Origin: a virus | DNA: 20,339 bases | Strand: one strand, 5' to 3' | IMG/VR virus record: IMGVR_UViG_3300010153_000164 | Span: 1-20,339 of that record | In this document: piece after piece, positions 12,456 through 17,939 of the stretch | Numbering within the stretch: position 1 is the first letter of the stretch | How the letters are laid out: every line of letters begins with the position of its first letter | Program-made: the position numbers and the translations under genes | Notes under the pieces: generated by a model | Told to the model about the DNA's origin: nothing | Database searches by the model: none | Seen by the model: the letters and a program-made list of their open reading frames with translations, nothing else

Positions 12456-12461
12456 CCTCCT
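12456..12461 (-). promoter_or_regulatory. Ribosome binding site that sets the holin-like start
   Basis: AGGAGG on the minus strand lies 6 nt before the ATG at 12449 and overlaps the stop codon of the gp46/47 fusion gene. It argues against the longer frame beginning at 12497. Confidence 0.8.
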
Positions 12462-15400
12462 ATAAATTAACGTGGGCGAACCCATCTTTTCTATCAATCA
12501 CTACTTGCATATCCACTGCATCTTTTAATGCATCAAGGTGTGATATTAGTATAACAGTTTTAAAATAATTTTTAACCATTTCCATTATGCGAACAAACCC
12601 TTCCATGTTATCTTCGTCCAAGGCGGTGCCGGGTTCATCCATTATAAATAGGTCCGGTTTCGGCAAGTTAGACACCGTAAGGAATGCTAACCTTATTGCC
12701 ATCGAAGCAATCGTCTTCTCCGCGCCGGAACCCATTTCCAAAGGGCGTGGTTCATACTTTGGGTGTTTTATGAAGATATCCAACTTCTTGTCCTCATTCT
12801 GGATGAACACTTCGAAGTCTACGATGCCTGTCAATATCTTTGCCACTTCTTCGTTTATAATAGGCAACCTATTCTTGATAATATTATAAGAAATGCCGTT
12901 AGTATGACAGCACCTCATGAACAGGTCATATGCTGCGAACTCCAACCTCAAATCTTCCAACTCCTGCTTCTTTGCTTCGAGAGACACCACCTTCTCTTCT
13001 AGAGACCCTATCGTGCGATACTGATTGTTAATAGATTCCTGGCACTCCTTGCATTCCGTTGTCTTTTCATCTATTTGATTCTCAAGATTCTTCTTTTCTT
13101 CCAAAAAGACCTCTAACTGCTCAATCGACTCCTTGTTTGCGGAGTACTCAGACATACGCTCATTCAAGTCATCCAGAGCGGATTTAGTCTTCAGCAGGTT
13201 GTTCTTGTTCTTTTCCAAAGAAAGTTCCAAAGCAACAGCGGTAGATTCCTGAGTGGATCGTTTTTCTAGAACCTTATCGTATTTCTCAATATAAGAATTA
13301 ACTTTTTCAGGTTCTAATCCAACTATTTCTTCTTGTATGCTTTCTACATCCTTCTTTAGGTCTTTTATCTTCTTGCTGGAGATATCAATAAGACCGACTG
13401 CCTTGTGGGCATCCTTTATAAACCTGCAGTTCGAATATTCATTTCCACAAGGGACTTCAAGCAAAAGACCTTTCTTCTTCTCGTTTCGAGAAAGTGTATC
13501 CTCTTCCTTTTCCAGATCTAAAAGAAAGTTCGATAATATTTCCGACTTCTCCTCTAGGGTCTTCTTTTTATCACTCCACACTCCAATATCAAAACCACTT
13601 AAAAAATCTTTTATTTTATTGATTGTTGCTTTATTTTCAGCGATCAGTTGCTCTATCTTCGCCTGTTCACTCTCTAGATCGGTCTTCTCTTTTGTGAATT
13701 TTTGGATATCATGACCCGTCAGAACTGGATCCACCACCTCTGCTGGAATCGAAGATATCTTGCCGTCCACTTCATTTAATAAATTCTGTAGTTCCCCGAT
13801 ATGTCGTTCTATGACTTCGCACCTGTTCTTGTTCGACTCTAGAGATGATTGCTCAAACTCCAACTTAGACTGTGCCTCAGAAATCTGCACGTCGAAATTA
13901 GTGCCCTCGATCTTCCTCAAGGCACCCCTAGTGTCTGCCGAGTCTTCCTTCGCTCTCTTGAACTTTTTATCAAAAATCTCCAAATCTAAAAATTTTGCCA
14001 GGATCTCCTTTCGGCGGGTGGACCCTTCATTAATGAAAGTGAGCGACTCTAGTTGACTTGCCATAGAAGTCATTAGGAAATCATCCAAAGAACCAAAGTG
14101 TTTTCGTATGTTCTTGTCGGTGTCCTGTCTTGATAGTCCGTTCTTACTCACCTCATTGCCGAGTAAATCCACGGAAGTGAAATCCACTTCCGTCTTTGCC
14201 TCCATGGTCTCAACTCCCTTCAACTTCTTGACATACTTCTCTGAATTTCTTTCAACCCGAAGGGTCTTATCTCCCACCTGCAACGTTGCGATGCCGAGAC
14301 CGTAATCCTTGTTTTGGTTTACTATATTCAGGTTCTTCCTAACTGATTTCGATGTCGAATTATATAAAGTATATAACAGTGCATCAATTATAGAAGATTT
14401 TCCAGAAAAGTTTTTACCAAATATGCCGACGATGCCTTCCAACTTATCGAAATCAATAGAGTTAGATTCGCCATAGTTAAACAGATTGTCCCACTCCAAC
14501 CTTCTCAGACTCCAATTCACATTTCTATAGACGTCCTCTTTCTCCTCAATCTCTACGTTATAAGAAGAGTTGAGTTCCAGAACCTTTTTCATTAGGTTCT
14601 CGGAAATCTCATAGTCTTTAAGGTACCCTTTCATCAACCTTTCCTGAACCTTGACATCTCGTAGGTTTTCCTGGCGTGGGTCCTGAACTCCGTCTGATAC
14701 TTCTACATTTTGACTTGATGCTCGATTTAAATATGTAACCGTCTCTGGTTTAAACTTGTGCTTCACAACGTCTACAGACTTTCGCATCTTGTCCAACGAG
14801 ATGTTATTATCTGACGTAAGGCGGATTCTCGCACCGGGATTTATTTTCAACTTTCTCGGTAAATTTCCTGCCTTGGTGAGCGGAATCGTAATAAAGGGTT
14901 TTGGATTATCGAAGATAATGTGCTTAACAGTGAAGTCCTCTTTATCCTTGATATCCCAAACCAAATAACCCTTATCTAGCGACTCGCCAAAGTTTTGTTG
15001 TATTGTAGATCCGCAATACCTTATCCTCCCTCTTTTGTCGAGAGTCTGAGTCTTGTGTATATCGCCCAGAAAAGCAAAGTCAAAATCATCGAAAATAGAG
15101 ATGCAATGATCACCAGACAGTGTCCAGTTCAAGTCGGTCTTTGACCTATCGATCGCACCATGGTATAATGCTATGTTTATTTCTTCTTTGTCCGATGGTG
15201 TGGTCCAGTTATCCTCGTCGAATACCGAAAGAACGTTCAAGTTGAACCCATGACCCAAACTAACCTCTTGGGACTCCTTCAATAAACGAAGGTTTGGATT
15301 ATCAAGAGCATCCACAATCGGAGTCAGAGCATCCTGACGACTACTATTCTTAAGGTTTCCGTCGTGGTTCCCCAAAATCACATATGTTGGGGCGATGGAT

Positions 15401-15603
15401 GCCAAGTCTGACAAAAAGTTGGAACACATCTCTACGAACTCTGGAGATATCTGTGTTTTGGTGTGGGCGATGTCGCCACAGTGAATAATATATTCTACTT
15501 TTTCTTTTCTAAGAGATTCATATAGTTGCTTGAACACCTCCTTATATTCATAATGATATTTTAAATTACGAATATGCGTGTCCGCAATATGGGCAAAGCG
15601 CAT
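12460..15603 (-). CDS. Fused Mre11/Rad50-type recombination nuclease (gp47-gp46 fusion)
   Basis: This single 1047-residue protein carries both subunits of the SbcCD/Mre11-Rad50 complex, which resects DNA ends for recombination-dependent replication. The N-terminal nuclease has phosphoesterase motifs ADTH (7-10), GD (43-44), GNHD (78-81), His148 (YHGA) and GDIH (180-183). The ATPase begins at about 365. Walker A is GKNFSGKS (396-403), long coiled coils run at about 560-890, and the zinc-hook position is CGNEYSNC (Cys719, Cys726; spacing of six rather than the usual CxxC). The ABC signature is GSGAE (958-962) and Walker B is FIMDEP (Asp989/Glu990). In T4 these are separate proteins, gp47 (339 residues) and gp46 (560). 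There is no stop or restart between the domains here. AGGAGG precedes the ATG, and a consensus promoter lies just upstream. Confidence 0.93.
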   Translation of the reverse strand: MRFAHIADTHIRNLKYHYEYKEVFKQLYESLRKEKVEYIIHCGDIAHTKTQISPEFVEMCSNFLSDLASIAPTYVILGNHDGNLKNSSRQDALTPIVDALDNPNLRLLKESQEVSLGHGFNLNVLSVFDEDNWTTPSDKEEINIALYHGAIDRSKTDLNWTLSGDHCISIFDDFDFAFLGDIHKTQTLDKRGRIRYCGSTIQQNFGESLDKGYLVWDIKDKEDFTVKHIIFDNPKPFITIPLTKAGNLPRKLKINPGARIRLTSDNNISLDKMRKSVDVVKHKFKPETVTYLNRASSQNVEVSDGVQDPRQENLRDVKVQERLMKGYLKDYEISENLMKKVLELNSSYNVEIEEKEDVYRNVNWSLRRLEWDNLFNYGESNSIDFDKLEGIVGIFGKNFSGKSSIIDALLYTLYNSTSKSVRKNLNIVNQNKDYGLGIATLQVGDKTLRVERNSEKYVKKLKGVETMEAKTEVDFTSVDLLGNEVSKNGLSRQDTDKNIRKHFGSLDDFLMTSMASQLESLTFINEGSTRRKEILAKFLDLEIFDKKFKRAKEDSADTRGALRKIEGTNFDVQISEAQSKLEFEQSSLESNKNRCEVIERHIGELQNLLNEVDGKISSIPAEVVDPVLTGHDIQKFTKEKTDLESEQAKIEQLIAENKATINKIKDFLSGFDIGVWSDKKKTLEEKSEILSNFLLDLEKEEDTLSRNEKKKGLLLEVPCGNEYSNCRFIKDAHKAVGLIDISSKKIKDLKKDVESIQEEIVGLEPEKVNSYIEKYDKVLEKRSTQESTAVALELSLEKNKNNLLKTKSALDDLNERMSEYSANKESIEQLEVFLEEKKNLENQIDEKTTECKECQESINNQYRTIGSLEEKVVSLEAKKQELEDLRLEFAAYDLFMRCCHTNGISYNIIKNRLPIINEEVAKILTGIVDFEVFIQNEDKKLDIFIKHPKYEPRPLEMGSGAEKTIASMAIRLAFLTVSNLPKPDLFIMDEPGTALDEDNMEGFVRIMEMVKNYFKTVILISHLDALKDAVDMQVVIDRKDGFAHVNL

Positions 15604-15854: not shown

Positions 15855-16799
15855 TTAACTCCATATGGTATTAGTTTTATAAAGTAAATAGTCATCTACT
15901 GACGCAAAAGAAGCAGTGTTTTTCAACCTCAAGAACTCTTCCTTGGTCATGGACCCAACGTCGTCGAACAAAGAGGTGTCAATCCTGAGTACCTCCATGC
16001 CATACAGAAGCAAATTCCTAACCACCCTGAGTGACTTCTCATGTGCGTCTGCGTCCAGGGCGACATAAACCCGCTTGCTTTTCTTTACCAAAGACTGAAA
16101 CAGGTTGGACCTGGGATTGAGGGTCGATCCAAGAAGTGGTATTGCATTTTCTGCGTTTAGTGCATCAAAAACGCCCTCGACCAACACTATCGGTTTCTGC
16201 CAGTCTATCAACATCTCGTTGAAAACCAAGTCCTTGCTGGTGGGAGGGTTCTTATATCGAGCATAGGAACCGTCGTAAGATCGTGCCACAAAGTAATCCA
16301 GGTCTCCATTCACGTCAAATGATGGAATTATTACTCTGTTCTCATAATCCCCGAAGAGGCAACAACCCATCTTCCACCTTAGAATGTCCCCTTTGTCAAG
16401 ACCTCTAGATTCCAAATACCTATACGGTCGTAATAAGGTCCTTGTTATTTCCCCAGTCAAGGTGACAAACCCAGGAGGCATGTCGATGACCCTTTTGACC
16501 GACTCCTCCTGCTCTGTTTCGAACAGTTTATCAAAGTTTGATATCTCTACAACGTTCCCGAACTGCTTCCACTCGATAGATGCCTGTCTTGATCCGTATC
16601 GCTTTAAGAGTCGATATATGTCGGCACCAGAGTATTCGCAAACCCAGCACTTAAACACATTTCTTGCAATGTTTACAGACAGTTTTCTCTTGTGGTGTTT
16701 GCATTTGGGGCAATGAAACAAAAGTTCATCACCATTCTTATAAGAATATCCAAAGTTTTCCTTTAAGATCTTTAACTTTTGCTCTTCCAATCGATCCAT
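15855..16799 (-). CDS. DNA primase, DnaG-type (zinc finger plus TOPRIM)
   Basis: This 314-residue primase makes RNA primers for lagging-strand synthesis with a replicative helicase (not in this window). The N-terminal zinc-binding domain has HCPKC (Cys30, Cys33, nearby His35/His36) and CWVC (Cys51, Cys54) around a strand VNIARNVFKC. The catalytic TOPRIM part shows LVEGVFDAL (Glu208) and YVALDADAHEKS (Asp249, Asp251), with DYENRVIIPSFDVNGDLDYF upstream at 151-170 as in DnaG-like folds. The protein is compact compared with bacterial DnaG (about 580) and close to T4 gp61 (342). It overlaps the resolvase gene by 28 nt, with AAGGCGGG just before the ATG. It is placed with recombination genes, consistent with a replication module. 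Confidence 0.9.
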   Translation of the reverse strand: MDRLEEQKLKILKENFGYSYKNGDELLFHCPKCKHHKRKLSVNIARNVFKCWVCEYSGADIYRLLKRYGSRQASIEWKQFGNVVEISNFDKLFETEQEESVKRVIDMPPGFVTLTGEITRTLLRPYRYLESRGLDKGDILRWKMGCCLFGDYENRVIIPSFDVNGDLDYFVARSYDGSYARYKNPPTSKDLVFNEMLIDWQKPIVLVEGVFDALNAENAIPLLGSTLNPRSNLFQSLVKKSKRVYVALDADAHEKSLRVVRNLLLYGMEVLRIDTSLFDDVGSMTKEEFLRLKNTASFASVDDYLLYKTNTIWS

Positions 16800-17305
16800 C
16801 CCGCCTTCGCTATTATATAACTATCTGATTTATCTAGCGTTCCTGGTTTGAGGTTTCCATTTCTTGTATACTCTACCACAAACTGGGGGTATTCGTCAAC
16901 AACAAAATTAAAACACTTTTCCTTTGCGTTTTCACCACGGCGGATGGTGACCCCTGCTTTTTTTCTCGCAGTGGAGGCGGAAATTAACTGCGGTGACTTA
17001 CCATAAACACTATGGCAAATCCAGGAGATCATCCCGTTATACCTAGACAACTTAGAGAGTATTTGCGCAGACGAAAATCCACTCCTAAAGGAGTGAAGTG
17101 ATTGCTCGATATAGACCTCAGTAATGTCAAACTTACTTTCCAGCATTGTCAACCTTTGCCTTAAAAATCGTGCTTTGACATAGAGGTCAGGAAATTTGTT
17201 CTTATTTCTTGTGTCTACTGATTCGTTATGAACACAGATACCAGCACTATCAAAGACTGAGATGCCGGTGATGCTTGTCGAAACGTCTAATCCTAATATA
17301 TTAAT
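16772..17305 (-). CDS. RuvC-like Holliday-junction resolvase, ATT start inferred
   Basis: The first conventional start, TTG at 17152, would remove the first catalytic strand. The frame is open back to 17331 and encodes INILGLDVSTSITGISVFD, the RuvC/RNase H-fold first motif. There is no ATG, GTG or TTG before it. An ATT at 17305, 6 nt after AAAGGA (17312-17317), is the best start and gives 177 residues. The full acidic set is then present: Asp7, Glu67 (VYIEQSLHSF) and Asp158/Asp161 (LDKSDSYIIAKAGW). FRSGFSSAQILSKLSRYNG (73-91) is typical of phage and poxvirus-type RuvC proteins. It would cut branched DNA before packaging. The start overlaps the J-protein stop, so translation may be coupled. 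Fusion by +1 frameshift is the alternative. Confidence 0.82.
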   Translation of the reverse strand: MNILGLDVSTSITGISVFDSAGICVHNESVDTRNKNKFPDLYVKARFLRQRLTMLESKFDITEVYIEQSLHSFRSGFSSAQILSKLSRYNGMISWICHSVYGKSPQLISASTARKKAGVTIRRGENAKEKCFNFVVDEYPQFVVEYTRNGNLKPGTLDKSDSYIIAKAGWIDWKSKS

Positions 17306-17939
17306 TTTTAATCCTTTGTATGTACTTGTTCATTATCTCTTCTCTCATCAGGGGATTGTCTTCATGATACCAGACCCAAGCGATCATCGATTTAATCCTA
17401 GAAATCCCCCTCTGAATACGGTCCATGGTCCTCTCTAGCATCTTTACGTGTTTCATGTTCGGTTCTGGTGGTTCGATTCCTAAAGATTTTGCAATTTCAG
17501 ATAATTCCAGAAAATCATCTTCCTCTATTGCCTGCTTCGCTTTCATGAACATCTTTTCCTTGTTGTCTCTTTCGAACTCAGACTTATCTAGTAAAATATC
17601 GGGATGAGTGCGCTTGGCGATCTGCTTGAACACCCTCTTCAAGTCATCATCCTTGTCCTCTTTTATATGCTCCTGAATGTCGGAATTGTTTGCTTCCTTC
17701 TTGGCGCGGCGGCGGTGTTTTGAGAGATCATTTCGGGTGACCCTCTCTTTCTCTTCGGTGGTTGAAGATTCTTCCTCTTTCTGTTCTTGGTCTTCATCAT
17801 CCACGATGATGACCTTTGTCATAAACTCTTTTGAGAATTCCGACTTTGCCATTTCAAGAATATCCTTGCTTATCTCTAGTTCCTTCTTGAGAAACTCAAC
17901 CTTAGCAGATACAAGACGAAATTTGCCACGTACATTCAT
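17301..17939 (-). CDS. J-domain (DnaJ-like) protein
   Basis: This is a 212-residue protein with a J-domain-like core at about 98-155. Helix II is DDLKRVFKQIAKRT, immediately followed by the diagnostic HPD tripeptide (His112-Asp114). A helix III-type segment follows, KEKMFMKAKQAIEEDDFLEL, then SEIAKSLGIEPPEP. J domains stimulate the ATPase of Hsp70 (DnaK), and HPD is essential for that. N-terminal to it are a coiled-coil-like helix (about 10-40) and an acidic/basic linker (about 47-95). The C-terminal part (about 163-212) is a charged helix pair with IAWVWYHEDNP. The arrangement differs from bacterial DnaJ, having no Gly/Phe or zinc region. It may recruit host DnaK for replication-complex or virion assembly. 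It overlaps the resolvase start. Its own SD is weak. Confidence 0.8.
   Translation of the reverse strand: MNVRGKFRLVSAKVEFLKKELEISKDILEMAKSEFSKEFMTKVIIVDDEDQEQKEEESSTTEEKERVTRNDLSKHRRRAKKEANNSDIQEHIKEDKDDDLKRVFKQIAKRTHPDILLDKSEFERDNKEKMFMKAKQAIEEDDFLELSEIAKSLGIEPPEPNMKHVKMLERTMDRIQRGISRIKSMIAWVWYHEDNPLMREEIMNKYIQRIKN
17312..17317 (-). promoter_or_regulatory. Ribosome binding site pointing to an ATT start codon
   Basis: AAAGGA on the minus strand lies inside the last codons of the J-protein gene, 6 nt before ATT (17303-17305). It is the only site upstream of the conserved LGLD motif in that frame, so it decides the start of the resolvase. Confidence 0.6.

Follow-up and report, generated by a model that had tools for sequence, protein, structure and literature searches.

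A predicted RuvC-type Holliday junction resolvase gene carried by a T4-like phage, which is described as marine, almost certainly begins at AUU. The window, meaning the whole 20,339-nucleotide stretch of DNA that was analyzed (IMG/VR record IMGVR_UViG_3300010153_000164), contains an otherwise intact reading frame for this gene in which no ATG, GTG, or TTG (together, NTG) precedes the codons for the catalytic N terminus. An ATT preceded by a Shine-Dalgarno sequence overlaps the stop codon of the upstream gene, and the lack of an NTG recurs in related lineages. In the reading that we favor, at a probability of roughly 0.75, the 177-residue resolvase would be made from AUU 17303-17305 through Shine-Dalgarno-assisted, termination-coupled initiation, with the weak codon limiting output. 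Coordinates of the features concerned are in Table 1.

Table 1. Features surrounding the resolvase start, in window coordinates
Feature	Position	Strand	Remarks
Upstream J-domain-like gene, 212 aa, HPD motif	17301..17939	−	TAA stop at 17301-17303 overlaps AUU
In-frame TGA opening the resolvase frame	17330..17332	−	No NTG from here to 17152
Shine-Dalgarno AAAGGA	17312..17317	−	6 nt before AUU; −5.4 kcal/mol with anti-Shine-Dalgarno
Proposed AUU start codon	17303..17305	−	Final base common to TAA stop of upstream gene
Predicted RuvC-like Holliday junction resolvase CDS, 177 aa	16772..17305	−	AUU start at 17303-17305; acidic D7, E67, D158/D161
First in-frame NTG (TTG)	17150..17152	−	NTG-only gene finder gives 126-aa protein
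Downstream DNA primase gene (phrog_47)	15855..16799	−	Overlaps resolvase 3' end by 28 nt

Reading frame and gene neighborhood

On the minus strand, the codons ahead of the conserved LGLD core read TGA(17330-17332) ACA AGT ACA TAC AAA GGA TTA AAA ATT(17303-17305) AAT ATA TTA GGA, and the frame stays open from this TGA down to the stop at 16772. The preliminary description, made from the sequence alone, had placed the strand with the catalytic Asp upstream of every NTG in a frame opening at a TGA near 17332, put the ATT 6 nt after AAAGGA, and expected a gene finder to return a truncated, 126-residue protein lacking that Asp. Rereading the codons bore out each of these points, as no ATG, GTG, or TTG was found in the resolvase frame between the TGA and the TTG at 17150-17152, and the open reading frame from that TTG encodes 126 aa, without strands 1 to 3, helix 1, or the catalytic Asp. 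The RNA of the start region is AU-rich, and the ribosome-binding site is unstructured (z +1). Two features were absent from the earlier account: the ATT and the upstream TAA share one T, which ends the former and begins the latter, and a second near-cognate codon, ATA, is the next codon but one after the ATT, poorly spaced from the Shine-Dalgarno sequence.

The phage itself is represented by one 20-kb virus record. Its gp23-type capsid protein had tblastn matches in 2504 phage records, the best at 38 to 48% identity, and no match to phage GenBank records was found at the DNA level. The order J-domain-like gene, resolvase, primase is repeated in two further lineages, L046 and L047, with a similar downstream start, and the HPD motif of the J-domain-like gene was seen in all members inspected.

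In many contigs the J-domain-like gene is a conserved operon neighbor of this resolvase family. Its protein matched Pfam DnaJ below the cut-off (E 0.022) and matched no phrog family of known function. No relatives turned up when this one J-domain protein served as the query, and the partner was traced through resolvase loci instead. Elsewhere in the window, positions 12460 to 15603 encode one 1047-aa protein with an N-terminal SbcD-like nuclease and a C-terminal SbcC-like ATPase, equivalent to the T4 gp47 and gp46 homologues fused into one gene.

Start codons in related phages

Start codons were compared across homologue loci from IMG/VR together with the window, with identical start regions collapsed, leaving 112 distinct start regions. 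Near the LGLD core, 86 of these have ATG, 14 have TTG, 9 have GTG, and 3 are without an NTG. An NTG thus lies within 12 codons of the core in 109 of 112, so that an intact gene with none truly stands apart from its family. Most other relatives have ATG one codon downstream of the position of the window's ATT (ATG-ILGLD). The ATT of the window corresponds precisely to an ATG in one relative, L011, within a nearly identical leader (GAAAGGCTTAAAAATGCTA vs AAAGGATTAAAAATTAAT). In L036, the nearest known relative (74%), an ATG stands six codons ahead of the core, and the AUU is thus not conserved there. Alignment of homologues had been named in the preliminary description as the comparison able to overturn its proposal; the N-terminal segment proved to be present in homologues, with the L011 ATG at the very codon in question.

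The three lineages without an NTG are the window (ATT), L047/L048 (ATT), and L046 (ATC or ATT). In L047/L048 (ATATGGGGAATTAAAATTAAGCATATACTAGGA) the ATT lies 6 nt after GGGGA, and these two sequences, identical over 6525 bases, come from two metagenome assemblies. In L046 (AATGAGGTAATTATCAAAAAATTTTTACTAGGG) the ATC/ATT follows GAGG; its NTG codons are 32 to 34 codons upstream, within the J-domain gene, and are unlikely starts at that distance, while AUC instead of AUU could be used. The Shine-Dalgarno sequences of the three lineages, at −5.4, −5.5, and −6.9 kcal/mol, pair more strongly than those of most members with an ATG start, and in all three the start and the upstream J-domain stop overlap or are 1 to 2 nt apart. 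A maximum-likelihood tree of 106 proteins places them in one subclade with the ATG members L036 and the L002/L043 group, and is compatible with either a single or a threefold origin of the non-NTG starts. Separately sought close relatives of L046 and L047 yielded no extra members lacking an NTG. A scan of a genome collection found no homologue of the resolvase in bacterial or archaeal genomes, and the sole homologue in phage GenBank records, LR756508, is distant (26%).

For the window alone, the main rival explanation is that a sequencing or assembly error conceals an NTG carried by the real phage; we consider this improbable. The window is a single metagenomic contig, one base change would turn its ATT into the ATG that L011 has there, and the upstream gene in many relatives extends further, stopping inside the LGLD codons, a layout that a lengthened upstream gene in the window would be similar to. 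Two other lineages, however, also lack an NTG, and one of these was recovered from two separate assemblies, so the phenomenon is independent of one base call. The T in question is also required for the upstream TAA: any other base would lengthen the J-domain gene by 18 codons, to its next in-frame stop, and the LGLD codons of the window hold no TGA that could substitute.

Initiation at the near-cognate ATA (17297-17299), giving M-LGLD, would produce a protein of nearly usual length, as most relatives begin only one codon earlier. This too seems very improbable, since the Shine-Dalgarno sequence would then be 11 to 12 nt away instead of 5 to 6, and both the ATG of L011 and the ATT of L047 occupy the position with Shine-Dalgarno spacing.

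A +1 ribosomal frameshift at AAA-AAU-UAA would dispense with a start codon altogether by producing a fused J-domain-RuvC protein. The window, L047, and many relatives with overlapping genes do have the resolvase in the +1 frame relative to the J-domain gene, and slippage could occur on AAA AAU. The resolvase of L046, however, is in the other frame, 109 of the 112 distinct start regions have their own NTG, and in-frame fusions are absent among the relatives, none of which is open for more than 44 codons ahead of the core. A frameshift fusion could hardly account for the locus and was rejected on the mixed frames and the absence of fused relatives.

Protein fold and selection

The predicted product is a full-length, 177-residue RuvC-type Holliday junction resolvase, an identity already proposed in the preliminary description and upheld here by family matches and structure prediction. 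All 21 members of a protein alignment matched phrog_159 and phrog_827 (RuvC-like resolvases); the window protein alone matched phrog_159 (E 4e-4) and phrog_827 weakly and had no Pfam match. AlphaFold, run on the alignment, gave a mean pLDDT of 92.1, rising to 95 for residues 1 to 10, with strand 1 at residues 2 to 7. In Foldseek searches against the PDB, the top matches were all bacterial RuvC (7xhj, 4ld0, and 7w8d, from D. radiodurans, T. thermophilus, and P. aeruginosa; TM 0.66 to 0.80), and the modeled protein has the RNase H-like RuvC fold. Residues L4, G5, L6, and D7 are invariant among the 21 aligned members, as are the four acidic residues D7, E67, D158, and D161, the first of them on strand 1. 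We take these four to correspond to D7, E66, D138, and D141 of E. coli RuvC. Phage RuvC-like resolvases (phrog_159, phrog_827, and the Lactococcus phage 67 RuvC, 4ktw) have in common with the window protein the fold, the N-terminal strand with the catalytic Asp, and the acidic residues; unlike the window gene, nearly all relatives in its family start at ATG, GTG, or TTG.

Codons before the first NTG are under purifying selection equal to that on the rest of the gene. Compared with L036, the first 49 core codons, which precede the TTG, have a pN of 0.177 and a pS of 0.687, and the remainder of the gene has a pN of 0.167 and a pS of 0.768. Because constraint is similar before and after the TTG, the N-terminal segment is real coding sequence, needed for the active site. 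Least credible of all is that the start has been lost and the gene is decaying, or that the 126-residue product from TTG 17150 is the only one made, for although automatic gene calling yields this form and an AAAGG precedes the TTG, albeit without spacing, the short form has none of strands 1 to 3, helix 1, or the catalytic Asp, would not fold as RuvC, matches no phrog family whereas the full form does, and would leave the strong selection upstream of the TTG without a cause.

Proposed initiation at AUU

The favored reading is that initiator fMet-tRNA would read AUU 17303-17305, to which ribosomes would be brought by the AAAGGA lying 6 nt before it in RNA that is AU-rich and unstructured. Because the ATT overlaps the upstream stop codon, termination-coupled initiation is the likeliest route, and ribosomes terminating at the J-domain stop may re-initiate at the AUU. 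In E. coli, ribosomes are known to re-initiate at a start codon that overlaps the stop before it, and excess IF3 inhibits this under some conditions (PMC2268962). Initiation at the AUU of the window might be sensitive to IF3. No coupling hairpin was detected in the start region of the window (z +1) or L047 (z +0.5), and that in L046 is weak (z −1.7). The weak AUU would probably keep resolvase output below that of its operon neighbors, because non-canonical start codons lower yield in reporters (PMC13009471).

The need for a T to complete the upstream stop may be a reason that the ATT has been kept in the window. This does not apply to L047 and hence can be at most part of the explanation. A broader proposal, which we regard as unlikely but not far-fetched, is that a clade of marine T4-like phages keeps AUU or AUC resolvase starts, discriminated against by IF3, as a regulatory device, with expression needing both J-domain termination and low host IF3 or relaxed stringency.

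Comparison with known AUU starts

Well-documented genes that start at AUU are few. The category itself is not new, and the window appears to add to it a phage case that recurs in related lineages and may be coupled to the gene upstream. Within T4-type phages, Nivinskas et al. in 1992 reportedly described an internal AUU start in phage T4 gene 26. That AUU yields a second, shortened protein from a baseplate gene, whereas in the window it is the sole sensible start for the whole gene. E. coli infC and pcnB have a rare AUU start that limits expression, with infC regulated via IF3 discrimination (cited in PMC5472188 and PMC13009471). Those are host chromosomal genes. Feedback through IF3 is understandable for infC, whereas the window gene encodes a phage resolvase, and its AUU overlaps the stop codon of the gene upstream. 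In Staphylococcus aureus, cvfC1 (AUU) and ccpN/citZ (AUA) pair a non-canonical start with a strong Shine-Dalgarno sequence, conserved in relatives, and reporters show lowered yield (PMC13009471). The pairing resembles that in the window, but the Shine-Dalgarno sequences there are extended, whereas the window combines an AAAGGA of moderate strength with overlap of the upstream stop. In addition, cvfC1 heads its operon, unlike the resolvase.

A resolvase family that has ATG, GTG, TTG, or ATT/ATC beside a well-defined core forms a natural series, in which one can ask how far Shine-Dalgarno strength and stop overlap can replace AUG. The practical consequence is an annotation error: a program that accepts no start other than NTG would either predict a resolvase that lacks the Asp of its active site or overlook the gene.

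Other start regions in the family

Several other arrangements were seen among the relatives. Where the J-domain gene stops inside the LGLD codons, the sole NTG is often a TTG 7 to 8 codons before the core, seen among L005, L006, L012, L014, L015, L018, L054, L060, L072, and L085, and in several such overlapping loci this core-proximal TTG falls inside the Ile-Glu/Gly codons of the upstream gene. L012 has ACG at a position where its near relative L013 carries ATG. In another set of relatives, the upstream gene ends in FKLKLD* about 50 nt before the resolvase start (e.g., L074, L082, L088, L102, L106, and L121). Among these, about 20 distinct loci have TATAAT (rarely TACAAT or TATCAT) exactly 6 nt before the resolvase ATG or GTG; it usually follows directly on the stop of the upstream gene, and a Shine-Dalgarno sequence is lacking. 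Judging by its position, this looks like a −10 element from which the resolvase mRNA would have no leader or almost none.
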